Part shown: positions 47,015 to 52,526 of the stretch, one piece after another
Layout of the letters: each line of letters begins with the position of its first letter
Position numbering within the stretch: the stretch's first letter is position 1
Source: Inhella gelatinilytica
GTDB taxonomy: Bacteria > Pseudomonadota > Gammaproteobacteria > Burkholderiales > Burkholderiaceae_C
Direction: 5' to 3'
Assembly (NCBI RefSeq): GCF_016093295.1
Contig: NZ_JAEDAL010000002.1
Span: 558,001-622,000, forward strand
DNA: 64,000 nucleotides
Notes under the pieces: generated by a model
Told to the model about the DNA's origin: nothing
Database searches by the model: none
Seen by the model: the letters and a program-made list of their open reading frames with translations, nothing else
Made by a program: the position numbers and the translations under genes

Positions 47015-48184
47015 ATGGCTTTATTGGAGCAAATGCAGGGGATCCCGGACACGGCTGAAGGGCTCGGAGCGCAACCGGGCTTGACGGTCTTGCATGTCGA
47101 GGACTCTGAACTCGATCATTTGATGATCCAGGCCCTGGTTCGACAGTCGGGCGTTGCCGTGCACTGGACTCGCGTGGAGACGCGCGATGCATTTGAGCAG
47201 GCCTTGACGCAGCCATGGGATGCCGTGGTGTGCGATTACCAACTGCCCGATACCAGTGGATTGGAGTTGTTGCAGCGCTTGCGTGCGCAGGATCAAGTGT
47301 TGCCTTTCATCCTGGTCTCGGGGGAGATTGGTGAGGAAGTCGCGGTAGCCGCCATGAAGGAGGGGGCCTCGGACTATTTGCTCAAAGGCCATCTGGCCCG
47401 CCTCGGGGTGGCGTTGCAGCAGGCCGTGCGGGCTGCTCACGCCGAACGGTCGCGGCGTGCCGCCGATCAAGCGCTGCGCAAGTCCACTCGTCAGTTGCAG
47501 GAACTCACGGCGCATTTGCAGCAGCGCATTGAAGCGGAGCGGGCGGCACTGGCTCGCGAACTGCATGATGATGTGGGCAGTGCCTTAACCGCCCTGAAGT
47601 TTGAACTGGCGGGGATTCAACGCCACGCGGCTGACGATGCGCAGCGACGACGCAGCCAGCGGGCGATTGAAACCCTCACCATGGCCATGGAGGCCAGTCG
47701 CCGCCTGATGGCGGATTTGCGCCCGCCCATCCTGCAGGAGGGGGTGGTGGCGGCCTTGCAGTGGTTGGTGCAGGATTTCGAACGTCGGCATGCCATTGCG
47801 ATTCAATGTGAGGGCTTGGTGGACGATCCAACGGTCGGCTCCGAGTTGTCTCTGGTGATCTACCGTTTCGTCCAAGAGGCCTTGCACAACGTGGCCAAGC
47901 ACGCGCAGGCGACTCAAGTTCGCGTCGAACTGCATCAAAGCTCTGGCGTCTTGGGGGTGGAGGTTCATGACAATGGCCGGGGCATGGAGGCGGATGCCGC
48001 CGACCGGCCGGGTCACTTTGGGCTTCGCGGGCTGCAAGAGCGGGCCGCGAGTGTGGGAGGTTGGGTGGATTTGAGTTCACGTCCCGGACACGGGGTTCAG
48101 TTGGTGTTGTCCATTCCACGGGATGGCAATTGGGAGCTGCGGGGTTCGGAAGACGCCGCGTGGTGGGCGGAGGACGGCGCATGA
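47015..48184 (+). CDS. receiver-histidine kinase, NarX-type (HisKA_3)
   Basis: 389 residues, soluble, with no membrane span. An N-terminal receiver domain with Asp74 (AVVCDYQLPDTSG) and KEGASDYLLKG is followed by a coiled coil (about 142-178). A HisKA_3 box ARELHDDVGSALTALKFELA (His184) and an HATPase domain follow (EALHNVAKHAQA, HDNGRGM, GLRGLQERA). The receiver-first architecture suggests it is controlled by another kinase or works with a sensory partner. ATG 47015 was chosen over a TTG at 46946. The stop overlaps the response-regulator start. Confidence 0.9.
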   Translation: MALLEQMQGIPDTAEGLGAQPGLTVLHVEDSELDHLMIQALVRQSGVAVHWTRVETRDAFEQALTQPWDAVVCDYQLPDTSGLELLQRLRAQDQVLPFILVSGEIGEEVAVAAMKEGASDYLLKGHLARLGVALQQAVRAAHAERSRRAADQALRKSTRQLQELTAHLQQRIEAERAALARELHDDVGSALTALKFELAGIQRHAADDAQRRRSQRAIETLTMAMEASRRLMADLRPPILQEGVVAALQWLVQDFERRHAIAIQCEGLVDDPTVGSELSLVIYRFVQEALHNVAKHAQATQVRVELHQSSGVLGVEVHDNGRGMEADAADRPGHFGLRGLQERAASVGGWVDLSSRPGHGVQLVLSIPRDGNWELRGSEDAAWWAEDGA

Positions 48185-48819
48185 TTCGCGTGCTGTTGTG
48201 TGACGACCATGCCTTGATTCGGCGCGGCATGCGCGATACCTTGGTGGACGCCGGGGACATCGATGTGGTGGGCGAAGTAAGCGACTACGGCAGTTTGCGC
48301 GAGTGGTTGCGTACGGGGTCGCGCCCTGACGTGTTGCTGTTGGACATCAACCTGCCCGGTCGAAGCGGATTGGATGTACTGCACGTGTTCAAGGACGAAC
48401 CGGACGCCCCGCGGACCTTGGTGGTGTCGATGTACCCGGAAGAGCAATACGCCATTCGCTGCTTGCGGGGCGGTGCCTTTGGTTATGTGAACAAGGGTGG
48501 GGACCCGGCGGAGTTGGTGCAGGCTGTGCGCATGGTGGCGCAAGGGCGCAAGTACGTGACGCCTGAGATCGCCCAAATGCTAGTGGAGAACCTGACGGCG
48601 CCCCAGCCGGAGCAGGCGCATCAAAAGCTCTCCGACCGCGAATTGCAGACCTTGGTCTTGATCGCCTCCGGCAAGCGACTGTCGGACATTGCCGAAGAAT
48701 TGGTGCTCAGCCCCAAGACGGTCAGCGTGTATCGCGCCCGGGTGCTCGAAAAACTCGGGCTGTCCAACAACTCTGAGCTGACGGTGTACGCGATCCGGCA
48801 GGGGTTGGTTCAAGGCTGA
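48181..48819 (+). CDS. response regulator, NarL/FixJ type, partner of upstream kinase
   Basis: 212 residues. The receiver has CDDH (7-10) and Asp55 in LLLDINLPGRSG, with VVSMYPEEQYA and YVNKGG completing the site. The LuxR helix-turn-helix is LSDRELQTLVLIASGKRLSD to KTVSVYRARVLEKLGL. The start overlaps the kinase stop (ATGA). It resembles the UvrY/GacA-RcsB group in general form. The gene lies five bases ahead of the diguanylate cyclase gene, so it may control or be co-expressed with the c-di-GMP module. Confidence 0.92.
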   Translation: MIRVLLCDDHALIRRGMRDTLVDAGDIDVVGEVSDYGSLREWLRTGSRPDVLLLDINLPGRSGLDVLHVFKDEPDAPRTLVVSMYPEEQYAIRCLRGGAFGYVNKGGDPAELVQAVRMVAQGRKYVTPEIAQMLVENLTAPQPEQAHQKLSDRELQTLVLIASGKRLSDIAEELVLSPKTVSVYRARVLEKLGLSNNSELTVYAIRQGLVQG

Positions 48820-48824
48820 CCACC

Positions 48825-50075
48825 ATGGGCCGCTTTACCCAACACTCCCTGGTTCGGCGCTTGACGCGCCTGAACCTGGCGGTGATGGCAGGGGCCCTGG
48901 CGCTGAGTTTTCTGCTTACTCAAGCCTGGGTTTTTTTGTTGGCCCGGCAGCGCCAGCAAGAGGCCACGGAAGCGGCGGCTGGCGTGATGGCACAGAACGT
49001 TGCGCCCATGCTGGCGTTCGAGGACTCGCGCGCAGCACAAGCCCTGCTGGACGAGTTGGTCAGTCGCCGGGGCGCGGATTTGATGGCGGTTACGGTCCAG
49101 GACCGAGCCGGTCGCGTGTATGCCCAGTGGCAGCGCACCCGGGCGCCAGCGCACCCCAGTTGGTTGCCTGGGTTTGGTCAGTCCTACGAACGGCGCATGC
49201 CGGTGATGGTGCAAGGCGAGCGGCTGGGTGAATTGGTATGGGTTGAAAGCCTGCAAGGCCTGGAGCGGGTGATGTTGCGCATCTGGCTGGGCAGTTTGGC
49301 CTTGTTTGGTGCGACCGGGGCGTTGGCCATCGCGGCCCTGAGAGCCGTCCAGCGGCGGGCGCTATCGCCCCTCATTGCCTTGACAGATCTCACCGAGCAA
49401 GTGGCCCAATCGCAGGATTACAGCTTGCGAGCCCCCGTGGTGCGGCAGGACGAGGTGGGGCGACTGGCAGGGCGCGTCAATGAAATGCTGGGTCGCATCG
49501 AGGCTTGGCATGCCGATTTGCGCGCTCAGCTGGAGCACGAGCAACGAGCGGGGCATGAGCTCCACCGCCTGGCCCACCGCGATCACCTAACCGGGTTGCC
49601 CAATCGCTTGTCATTCGACTTGGAATTGGAGCGCCATGTGGTGCATGTGCAGCAAGGTGGCTATGAACTGGGCCTGATGTTCATCGACCTGGATCACTTC
49701 AAAGCCATCAACGATGTTCTGGGCCATGACGCTGGCGATGAGGTGCTGGTGGAGGTGACCCAGCGGATGCATCATTCGCTTCGGGTCAGCGACACCTTGT
49801 TCCGGCTGGGGGGCGATGAGTTCGCCCTGCTGATCGCACCCTTGGGCAGCGAACCCTCGATGGAGCATTTGGCAGAGCGGCTCATCCAGGCGGTGGGAGA
49901 ACCGTTGTCGATTCGTGGACGGGTGATGCCGCTGGGGGCAAGTGTGGGTGGGGCCATTGCGCCGCGTCATGGCCGCGACGCGGCGACCCTGCTGCGTTGC
50001 GCGGATGCCGCCATGTACGAAGCCAAAGCGGCAGGCAAGCACTGTTTTCGGATGGCGCGACATGACAACGATTAG
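48825..50075 (+). CDS. diguanylate cyclase with CHASE8-like sensor and HAMP (YfiN-like)
   Basis: 416 residues: TM1 (about 18-40); a periplasmic domain of about 105 residues with AAGVMAQNVAPMLAFEDSRA, the pattern of CHASE8/YfiN sensors; TM2 (about 151-173); HAMP; and GGDEF. The active site GGDEF (329-333) is intact, with an RVSD inhibitory I-site nine residues before it (320-323) and the DxLT motif HRDHLTGLPNR. It makes c-di-GMP from two GTP and is product-inhibited. The neighbouring yfiR-like gene suggests periplasmic repression of this enzyme. Confidence 0.93.
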   Translation: MGRFTQHSLVRRLTRLNLAVMAGALALSFLLTQAWVFLLARQRQQEATEAAAGVMAQNVAPMLAFEDSRAAQALLDELVSRRGADLMAVTVQDRAGRVYAQWQRTRAPAHPSWLPGFGQSYERRMPVMVQGERLGELVWVESLQGLERVMLRIWLGSLALFGATGALAIAALRAVQRRALSPLIALTDLTEQVAQSQDYSLRAPVVRQDEVGRLAGRVNEMLGRIEAWHADLRAQLEHEQRAGHELHRLAHRDHLTGLPNRLSFDLELERHVVHVQQGGYELGLMFIDLDHFKAINDVLGHDAGDEVLVEVTQRMHHSLRVSDTLFRLGGDEFALLIAPLGSEPSMEHLAERLIQAVGEPLSIRGRVMPLGASVGGAIAPRHGRDAATLLRCADAAMYEAKAAGKHCFRMARHDND

Positions 50076-52023
50076 GGCGCGATTCGCTTGGAGTCTGGTC
50101 CTGGGGCTGGCAGCTCAGGTTGCAGCAGCGCAAGACAGTGGGCCATCGCTGGAGGACTTGCTGCGTCAGGAGCCAGATCGCCCCAGCGCCGATGTCGCCG
50201 TGAGCACGGCAGCGCGCCTGGCGCAAAGCAGCGCACAAGCGCCTGGCGTGACCCGGGTCGTCACCCGGCAAGACATTCAACGGCTGGGTCTTCGCACCTT
50301 GGCCGATGTGCTGCGTCTCTTCCCGGGTTTGTATTTGGCCCAGGACGACCTGTTTACGCAGATGGGCGTCCGTGGGATCGGCCGACCAGGAGACCTGAAC
50401 GCACGGATTCTGTTCTTGCTCGATGGCCTGCGCCTGAACGAAAACATTTATGACGCGGGGCAGGTCGACGAAGACTTTGTGGTCGACGTCAGCGAGATCG
50501 AGCGCGTGGAGTTCACCTCGGGGTCGGGGTCGGCGCTGTACGGCAACAACGCCTTCTTGGGGGTGGTGCAAGTCTTTACCCGGCGGGCCGATCCGTCCGC
50601 AGCCGTGCGGGTTCGATGGCGTTGGGATGGCCCGCAGCGCTTCACCACCCACCTGAGTGCCGGACACCGGCTGGACTCCGGTGCGGAATGGGGGTTCTCC
50701 GCCACGCGGATGCGTGCGCGCAGACAAGAACTCTTCGACGCCCTGCCGGCCTACGCCGTGGCGGATCAACAGCGCCTGAACGAGGATCGGGCGGACAAAC
50801 TGAACCTGCGTTGGATTCAGGGGGGCCTGCGGGCACGCTTGGGCGCCGTGGACCGCATCAAAGGTTTTCCGGTCGAGTTGGGCATATCCGTCCCGGCGGG
50901 TTTGGCCCAGGCTGTGGATCGCACCCGCATTCATTGGGGACAGGTGCAATGGGAGCAGCCGCTGGGTGACAGCGCCTGGCTTCAGTTGGGCGCTGCGCGT
51001 CAACAGTTGCTTTACCGATACGACGAGCCGTTTCAGAGTCGCAGTGGGCGCAAGGGGGTTTTTCGATTCGAAACCCTGGGCCTGTGGGACTTGGTGGAGG
51101 CTCGGGCGGGCGGCGCGTGGACGGATCAGCACGAATGGATGCTGGGGGTGGAAGGGCAAAACGACCGGATGCAACGGATCCGGTACTTTGTTCTGGGCGA
51201 CGACGACAGCGCGGACGACGCGCGCCATCAGCGTTGGGGCTTTTGGGTCCAGGACGTTTGGCGCCAAAGTGACAACCAGCGTTGGGTTCTGGGCTGGCGA
51301 GCGGATCGGCTGCAGGGGCAAGGGTGGCGCACCCATCCCCGGGTCGCCTACGTGTGGTCACCCGCGGAGGGCCGGCAACTCAAGCTGAGCTATGGCGGCG
51401 CGTTCCGGGCGCCCAATCGGTCGGAAAGCCTGCACAACAGTTCTCAGGATTTGGCACCGCCGCCGGCAGAACGGGTTCGAAGCCTGGAGCTGGCGTGGGA
51501 AGCCCCGCTGGGCGAACGCTGGCGCGGGCGATGGGTGGTGTACGGCGGGCGCGTTCGCAACCTCATCGATGCCGGGCCGGACGACGCCTATTACAGCGCC
51601 AGTCCTCCCGTGCGCAGCCGTGGTTTGGAATGGGAAGTGGAGGGCCGTTGGCGGGGCGGAGCCAGTGTGCAGGCCAGCGTGGCGGTGCAGCAGTCTCGCT
51701 ACGCGGGGGGGGAGCGTTTGAGCAACAGCCCGACCGCTTTGGCACGCCTTCGGTTTTCTTTGCCGCTGGGTGAGGCGTGGCGCCTCTCGGTCCACGGTGA
51801 GGCGGTGGGGGCGCGGCGTGTCGATGACGAACGGATCGCCGGCTATGGCGTGTGGCATGCGAACGTCGTCTGGCACGTGGAACCGCAATGGGATGTGTTC
51901 CTTGGCGTTCGGAACCTGGCGGACCGGCGCTACTGGGATGCACCGGCGGTTTCAGGGGGTGCGCCCATTGAACAGCACGGGCGTCAGGCCCACATGGGGG
52001 TGGAATGGCGCTTCCGTCCCTGA
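50062..52023 (+). CDS. TonB-dependent receptor in YfiN/YfiR operon
   Basis: 653 residues from ATG 50062, overlapping the cyclase stop by 14 bases. A signal peptide ends in VAAAQ. The plug domain includes VTRVVTRQDIQRLGLRTLAD, VLRLFPGLYL and SEIERVEFTSGSGSALYGNN. The remaining 500 or so residues form a beta-barrel with the usual Arg/Gly-rich strands and an ending AHMGVEWRFRP. No obvious TonB box can be assigned with certainty. The substrate is unknown. Its position between a YfiN-like cyclase and YfiR is notable because the classic system has the OmpA-like YfiB instead. Confidence 0.9.
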   Translation: MTTIRARFAWSLVLGLAAQVAAAQDSGPSLEDLLRQEPDRPSADVAVSTAARLAQSSAQAPGVTRVVTRQDIQRLGLRTLADVLRLFPGLYLAQDDLFTQMGVRGIGRPGDLNARILFLLDGLRLNENIYDAGQVDEDFVVDVSEIERVEFTSGSGSALYGNNAFLGVVQVFTRRADPSAAVRVRWRWDGPQRFTTHLSAGHRLDSGAEWGFSATRMRARRQELFDALPAYAVADQQRLNEDRADKLNLRWIQGGLRARLGAVDRIKGFPVELGISVPAGLAQAVDRTRIHWGQVQWEQPLGDSAWLQLGAARQQLLYRYDEPFQSRSGRKGVFRFETLGLWDLVEARAGGAWTDQHEWMLGVEGQNDRMQRIRYFVLGDDDSADDARHQRWGFWVQDVWRQSDNQRWVLGWRADRLQGQGWRTHPRVAYVWSPAEGRQLKLSYGGAFRAPNRSESLHNSSQDLAPPPAERVRSLELAWEAPLGERWRGRWVVYGGRVRNLIDAGPDDAYYSASPPVRSRGLEWEVEGRWRGGASVQASVAVQQSRYAGGERLSNSPTALARLRFSLPLGEAWRLSVHGEAVGARRVDDERIAGYGVWHANVVWHVEPQWDVFLGVRNLADRRYWDAPAVSGGAPIEQHGRQAHMGVEWRFRP

Positions 52024-52526
52024 GCTGTCGGGCCTTGAGTCTGAGCCTCCTGCTGTGCCTCGCGGGCGGCGGGGCGGGTGCCGCATCGGAAGAGGAATTG
52101 CGGGCGGCCTTTGTGTACCGCTTTGCCCAGTTTACGCAGTGGCCGTCAGCACTGGGGGACCTCGTGGTGTGTGGCGCGCGCTTGGGTGAGACGGAAGAGC
52201 CCCTGCGGCGCTTGGACGGTCGAGCCCTCGGGGCCGCCACGGTTCGGTATCGGCGGGTCGAGTCGCCGCGGGAAGCCAGCACACAGTGTCAGGTGCTGGT
52301 GCTGGGCCACTCCGACGTGGCCGCGTTGCGCCACTGGGTTCAGGGCTTGGGCTCCGCCTCGGTGCTTGTGGTTGGCTTAAGCGCGGAATCGTGGCGGGCC
52401 GGGGCCTCCATTGCCCTGCTGACCGAACCCCATGGCTTGGCGTTCAGCGTGAATCAAAGCGAAGCCCAGCGACGGGGCCTGCAGGTGTCGGCCCAGGTCT
52501 TGAAGCTGGCGCGCGAAGTGCGCTGA
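52005..52526 (+). CDS. yfiR: YfiR-family periplasmic protein (DUF4154)
   Basis: 173 residues. A signal peptide (MALPSLSCRALSLSLLLCLA) is followed by the DUF4154 landmarks: EEELRAAFVYRFAQFTQWP, a single Cys in LVVCGARLG, a second in STQCQVLVLG, and GLAFSVNQSEAQRRGLQVSA then QVLKLAREVR. This matches YfiR, which sits in the periplasm and inhibits the diguanylate cyclase YfiN. Two Cys residues correspond to one disulfide of the P. aeruginosa protein; the second disulfide pair is absent. The start overlaps the receptor gene by 19 bases. It is the last gene of the operon and meets fliR tail to tail. Confidence 0.88.
   Translation: MALPSLSCRALSLSLLLCLAGGGAGAASEEELRAAFVYRFAQFTQWPSALGDLVVCGARLGETEEPLRRLDGRALGAATVRYRRVESPREASTQCQVLVLGHSDVAALRHWVQGLGSASVLVVGLSAESWRAGASIALLTEPHGLAFSVNQSEAQRRGLQVSAQVLKLAREVR

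Follow-up and report, generated by a model that had tools for sequence, protein, structure and literature searches.

Genes for TonB-dependent receptors (TBDRs) and for YfiR (DUF4154) proteins form a recurrent pair. In the genomes sampled YfiR is found more often with a TBDR than with YfiB, and the known YfiBNR system makes up one clade of an unrooted tree. This suggests that YfiR signalling more often takes its input from TBDR-type receptors than from the lipoprotein YfiB. In the window, i.e. the whole stretch of 64,000 nucleotides that was analysed, a YfiN-like cyclase, a TBDR and YfiR are encoded together, and we hold it somewhat probable that the three constitute one signalling module, in which the ligand state of the receptor would be relayed to YfiR and from there to the cyclase by way of the receptor's N-terminal segment. 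As far as can be seen this reading is new, with no printed account of a TBDR-YfiR link found in the literature searched (subscription papers and preprints lay outside the search).

Gene content of the window locus

The genes and short motifs of the locus are the following, in window positions.

47015-48184, + strand: kinase with REC, HisKA_3 and HATPase domains (Pfam), judged a chemotaxis/flagellar neighbour of the module
48181-48819, + strand: NarL/LuxR response regulator (Pfam), likewise judged a chemotaxis/flagellar neighbour
48825-50075, + strand: YfiN-like CHASE8-HAMP-GGDEF diguanylate cyclase (Pfam), module core
49002-49025, + strand: F-x-D stretch APMLAFED in the cyclase periplasmic helix, comparable to the AAVVF(xD) motif of YfiN
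49782-49823, + strand: RVSD-x5-GGDEF of the cyclase, with the I-site RVSD five residues ahead of the active-site GGDEF
50062-52023, + strand: BtuB/Cir-like TBDR with Plug and barrel but no STN domain, module core
50146-50163, + strand: SLEDLL segment, receptor residues 29-34, between signal peptide and TonB box, a candidate periplasmic contact
50191-50217, + strand: candidate TonB box DVAVSTAAR, receptor residues 44-52, at the point from which the receptor model can be superposed on BtuB (residues 6-7 of the latter)
52005-52526, + strand: YfiR (DUF4154; Pfam), with a signal peptide and one domain

Pfam, together with a check of starts and overlaps, bears out the original prediction for 47015-52526: there are five genes on the plus strand, and their products have the domains named in it. 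The kinase and regulator frames share an ATGA overlap, the end of the cyclase gene overlaps the start of the TBDR gene by 14 nt and the end of the latter overlaps the start of yfiR by 19 nt, so that the predicted placement of a TBDR between cyclase and YfiR in overlapping frames also holds. The same is true of the predicted absence of YfiB from the locus: no OmpA gene was found by the OmpA profile in the 15.5 kb around the module (L033), and the eight OmpA domains of the genome lie elsewhere, none of them at either of its two YfiR loci. The second DUF4154 gene of this genome again forms part of a TBDR-YfiR-CHASE8-GGDEF-EAL arrangement. To the left of the module, the minus strand carries cheZ-, cheY-, cheA- and cheW-like genes and a chemoreceptor gene, names read from the sequences; the cheY-like product is a lone receiver domain (Pfam, 1.6e-29) and the cheZ-like product matched no Pfam family. 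The genes fliR, fliQ, fliP, fliO, fliN, fliM and fliL are located to the right, fliR being identified by Pfam (2.7e-66) and the others named from sequence.

The cyclase matches CHASE8 (2e-11), HAMP (1.1e-8) and GGDEF (6.8e-45), and the intact GGDEF and RxxD I-site attributed to it are found at 49782-49823. AAVVF(xD) is the motif by which YfiN contacts YfiR (PMC3375315, PMC3838380), and an F-x-D-type motif occurs in 185 of the 216 CHASE8 transducers examined. The sole Pfam family matched by YfiR is DUF4154 (4.4e-29), and its structure model (pLDDT 88.6, built from 71 sequences) resembles P. aeruginosa YfiR (4yn7) with Z 19.6. Cys56 and Cys95 match Cys71 and Cys110 of the P. aeruginosa protein, but the second cysteine pair is lacking, the alignment placing W and A at the positions of Cys145 and Cys152. 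The closest named YfiR is that of Inhella proteolytica (66%).

The receptor matches the Plug (1.9e-17) and barrel (3.7e-24) families, and Pfam and the structure model (pLDDT 91.6) both give a Plug with a 22-strand-type barrel. The nearest solved fold is BtuB (Z 42.5 over 524 residues, 2.1 A), and BtuB and Cir are the best matches in structure as well as in sequence. Both structures align to the receptor from residue 44 onward, i.e. behind the SLExL segment; the TonB box of BtuB we take to lie at its residues 6-7. Leu33 of the SLEDLL segment is L in 56 of 60 YfiR-linked receptors. The SLExL pattern is present in 89/118 linked receptors (mean after shuffling 15.1) as against 3/20 of the own genome's other receptors (mean after shuffling 1.65), and many of the 29/118 linked receptors that it misses are near-variants. 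One clade holds 113 of 117 linked TBDRs and takes in just four of the 20 other TBDRs, the latter all sampled from the own genome. The linked receptors are, judged by sequence, a subfamily of their own. An STN-type transducer of the FecA/FpvA kind was considered and rejected, the window receptor matching only Plug and barrel in Pfam and STN being absent from the families matched by all 60 linked receptors scanned.

Partners of YfiR across genomes

DUF4154 was sought in whole genomes and its neighbours were classed using profiles grown from proteins of the window itself. The family draw covers 100 genomes, 34 with DUF4154, and 56 places, two of them in the own genome, with up to 15 kb each. Among its 56 YfiR genes, 43 lie beside a TBDR gene, 12 beside an OmpA/YfiB gene, one beside neither and none beside both. 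The TBDR gene is directly upstream on the same strand in 42 cases and on the other strand in one. In all 12 TBDR-free OmpA-linked loci the cyclase gene is followed by the OmpA gene. The linkage is above chance: with 26 Plug domains in the 3.52 Mb of the own genome (about 3,200 genes), fewer than 2% of genes are estimated to touch a TBDR gene, against 43 of the 56 DUF4154 genes. Beyond 4 kb from these 56 genes, the 370 kb of flank contained no further TBDR. The original prediction was to be given up if relatives lacked the linkage; the linkage proved to be conserved, with YfiR, a TBDR and a CHASE8 transducer lying together in the absence of YfiB.

At class level, DUF4154 is encoded in 66 of 370 genomes and 49 of 71 rows are TBDR-linked, the set comprising 70 of 120 places outside the own genome (the 30 best, with 1.5 kb flanks, and 40 from further down the list). 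It gives 71 rows since two genes lie on L145, one of which is the L104 gene and was thus counted twice. In the phylum set (88 of the 100 places not in other sets, 12 being left out), DUF4154 occurs in 84 of 397 genomes, and 49 of 88 rows are TBDR-linked and 17 OmpA-linked. A named set of 44 window-type loci was found with a close YfiR alignment (A2); this alignment yields window-type relatives only, and these loci thus say nothing on other phyla. A TBDR is present in 42 of the 44, a complete CHASE8-GGDEF cyclase in 38 and the kinase with the regulator in 22, loci cut by contig ends included. The TBDR-YfiR pair is also annotated independently by name, RefSeq-style, on the Sphingobium plasmid pSRL1. 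The pairing is, in sum, recurrent.

The TBDR gene varies in position and may precede yfiR, follow it or stand behind the kinase gene. At L050, where the receptor and YfiR frames overlap, the upstream position was assigned manually. The TBDR-YfiR spacing has a median of 1 nt, with 121 of 142 values between -120 and +30, figures biased by the choice of the start closest to the receptor. The outputs of the TBDR-linked rows outside the named set are 79 CHASE8 kinases, 22 CHASE8-GGDEF-EAL and 10 plain CHASE8-GGDEF proteins (some cut by the flank); in the OmpA-linked rows CHASE8-GGDEF is found in 29/29. The order YfiR, CHASE8 hybrid kinase, TBDR is seen at L234, L236, L237, L241, L243, L244, L258 and L260 (mostly family f192). 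Fusions of YfiR to a histidine kinase number seven, four of them beside a TBDR (L155, L275, L288 and L289, in varied orientation). In Roseateles toxinivorans (L173/L075, counted as TBDR-linked on receptor remnants), cyclase and receptor persist as remnants spread over several reading frames, some 1.7 kb of sequence being missing, while YfiR is intact; here both membrane components of the module have been lost in nature. An IS30 transposase gene stands between receptor pieces and YfiR-CHASE8-GGDEF on a plasmid of Pseudoalteromonas sp. HL-AS1 (L313).

No row holds a TBDR and an OmpA gene together. Of the 149 long-flank loci (66 short-flank rows being left out of this table), 92 have a TBDR, 28 an OmpA gene, 29 neither and none both, and Cys145 and Cys152 of YfiR occur together in 28 of 29 OmpA-linked rows against 0 of 183 TBDR-linked rows (about 178 distinct genes, L162, L173, L194 and L202 very likely being L055, L075, L049 and L057), counts that are not independent events since the unrooted YfiR tree has a single change between TBDR and OmpA partners. 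In this tree, a clade of 33 comprises all 29 OmpA-linked rows, four rows with neither partner and no TBDR-linked row, and these four are 'neither' rows that carry the Cys145/Cys152 pair; the window YfiR falls outside it. The two cysteines are critical for local structure at the YfiB interface according to the P. aeruginosa crystal study (PMC4655355). Arg60, Arg175, His/Asn177 and Pro178, residues of the YfiB face known from the YfiB-YfiR complex (PMC4887326), are typical of OmpA-linked YfiR proteins and replaced in TBDR-linked ones. In six family genomes (G004, G007, G013, G058, G067 and G075) a TBDR-linked and an OmpA-linked system coexist, each keeping to its own partner. The loci with neither partner, which include 15 of 40 in the class set, are a point against the module reading. 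Among the loci without TBDR and OmpA, the neighbour of YfiR at L123, L152 and L119 is a chemoreceptor, a DAHL-domain kinase or a glycosyltransferase; YfiR inputs other than TBDR or YfiB may exist. The description of the locus as having a TBDR in place of YfiB thus stands as regards a TBDR without YfiB, but the implied default is to be reversed, since the TBDR is the commoner partner in the sample and the YfiB-linked YfiR proteins mark one branch of the unrooted tree.

Where a genome has paralogous copies of the pair, receptor and YfiR have diversified in step. In 29 modules from 11 genomes with at least two modules, YfiR and TBDR distances correlate with a Spearman coefficient of 0.73, against 0.18 +- 0.09 when partners are swapped within genomes (0/5000 swaps as high as 0.73). 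Plain operon duplication would also yield such co-diversification.

Proposed signal relay and its alternatives

In P. aeruginosa, YfiR binds the periplasmic domain of YfiN, which results in repression, and is recruited to the outer membrane by YfiB (PMC3375315, PMC4655355). In the reading favoured here, the receptor would be the outer-membrane hand in place of YfiB, with the TBDR as outer-membrane input, YfiR as periplasmic relay and the CHASE8-HAMP-GGDEF protein as inner-membrane output. Ligand occupancy of the receptor, or TonB-driven movement, would change the N-terminal segment offered to YfiR; the SLExL stretch ahead of the TonB box would be the YfiR-facing segment, acting as the N-terminal linker of YfiB does in P. 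aeruginosa. YfiR would then hold or release the periplasmic helix of the cyclase, changing c-di-GMP. Within this reading, the relay, the contact site and the sign are what we infer, and direct contact between receptor and YfiR is ranked first, import of a YfiR ligand second.

In the latter case the TBDR would import a ligand, YfiR would bind it as a one-lobe binding protein and occupied YfiR would switch the cyclase, with no receptor-YfiR contact needed. Though unlikely, this is a serious rival to direct contact, since the folds nearest to the model after YfiR itself are 3lkv (Z 13.3) and 3lft (Z 13.2), the latter an ABC binding domain solved with L-Trp. P. aeruginosa YfiR has likewise been reported to bind vitamin B6 or L-Trp in the YfiB pocket, but with an affinity in the millimolar range (PMC4887326). 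The own genome also encodes a YfiR-free counterpart of the module (L314, contig C17, 6546-13487), in which an ABC_sub_bind protein takes the place of YfiR beside a HAMP histidine kinase and two tandem TBDRs; the kinase weakly matches the grown CHASE8 profile and does not match Pfam CHASE8. This ABC_sub_bind protein adjoins a kinase in all five family loci found, but a TBDR is present in only two of the five, the flanks of the other three being too short to tell. Uptake and binding would also leave the conserved receptor segment ahead of the TonB box unexplained.

The receptor could instead be cargo, or a co-regulated uptake gene that travels with the YfiR-cyclase pair and does not signal to it. 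Operons can contain genes that share timing only, and 29 of the 149 long-flank loci lack both TBDR and OmpA. However, the adjacency survives the changes of gene order described above and spans GGDEF, GGDEF-EAL and kinase outputs as well as YfiR-kinase fusions, and the mutual exclusion of TBDR and YfiB, together with cognate pairing, speaks against mere linkage, which makes this explanation improbable.

The original prediction further placed the module under its own two-component control, with the adjacent kinase and LuxR regulator as module parts that set its expression. The two genes overlap or abut the cyclase gene in the window, the Inhella/Roseateles/Paucibacter group retains the order of all five genes, and the pair is found in half of the named loci (22/44). 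Among the 41 named loci with 5 kb upstream, however, the pair adjoins cheZ in 22/22 loci that have it and is absent from 19/19 that lack cheZ; named loci without the pair keep cyclase-TBDR-YfiR or TBDR-YfiR, and the core module occurs without the pair in Oxalobacteraceae and at loci of Janthinobacterium, Duganella and Rugamonas. Close relatives of the regulator (at least 62% identity) occur in 66 of the 100 family genomes, and 23 of the 30 best regulator places show no CHASE8 cyclase downstream within the 1.5 kb flank, as at L328, which has cheZ, kinase, regulator and fliR but no module. At two of these 23 places (L343 and L347) the regulator is followed by a different GGDEF gene, one without CHASE8. 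Two-component control as a part of the module is thus not supported and very improbable, since the pair is part of the chemotaxis/flagellar locus, where it is also found when the module is missing. The module thus seems to have been inserted between the regulator gene and fliR.

Setting out from direct receptor-YfiR contact, a broader proposal is possible but stays tentative: TBDRs may be the general, perhaps the original, outer-membrane input of YfiR across Pseudomonadota, and so a second route, free of STN domains and sigma factors, by which these receptors would signal to the cytoplasm; a short stretch preceding the TonB box would pass the ligand signal by way of YfiR to a cyclase or histidine kinase, and YfiB may be a late replacement that came with the second YfiR disulfide.

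Relation to known systems

The window module shares with BtuB and Cir the fold of its receptor, but differs from them in the additional conserved segment ahead of the TonB box and in the linkage to signalling genes. As in FecA/FpvA-type signalling, a TBDR would serve as outer-membrane sensor; unlike in those systems, no STN domain occurs in the linked receptors (0/60), no FecR-like regulator or ECF sigma factor was found among the eight window proteins scanned by Pfam, and the relay would consist of YfiR and a membrane cyclase or kinase. If true, TBDRs would have a further way of signalling besides the STN/anti-sigma route.

As Malone et al. 2012 observed (PMC3375315), YfiB is missing from many YfiNR pairs, whose input they left open; outside Pseudomonadota, their paper names Geobacter, Acidobacteria and Opitutus. 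The window module resembles these pairs in combining YfiR with a YfiN-like sensor, with varied outputs (GGDEF-EAL, kinase) and no yfiB. It differs in that its partner is a TBDR; the main text of that paper, in which TonB is not mentioned, names no outer-membrane partner. A TBDR partner provides the YfiB-less YfiNR systems with a candidate sensor and a testable route from ligand to c-di-GMP.

Like YfiBNR of P. aeruginosa and HmsCDE of Yersinia, the window combines a DUF4154 protein with a CHASE8(PAS)-HAMP-GGDEF cyclase in one operon, keeps the Cys71-Cys110 pair and has the F-x-D motif on the cyclase helix. It is unlike them in having a TBDR and no YfiB, in the gene order cyclase-TBDR-YfiR, and in a YfiR that lacks Cys145-Cys152 and the conserved YfiB-contact residues and lies outside the YfiB-linked clade. 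If the proposed relay is true, the textbook YfiBNR system would be re-read as a single specialised offshoot within a broader family of receptor-YfiR systems.
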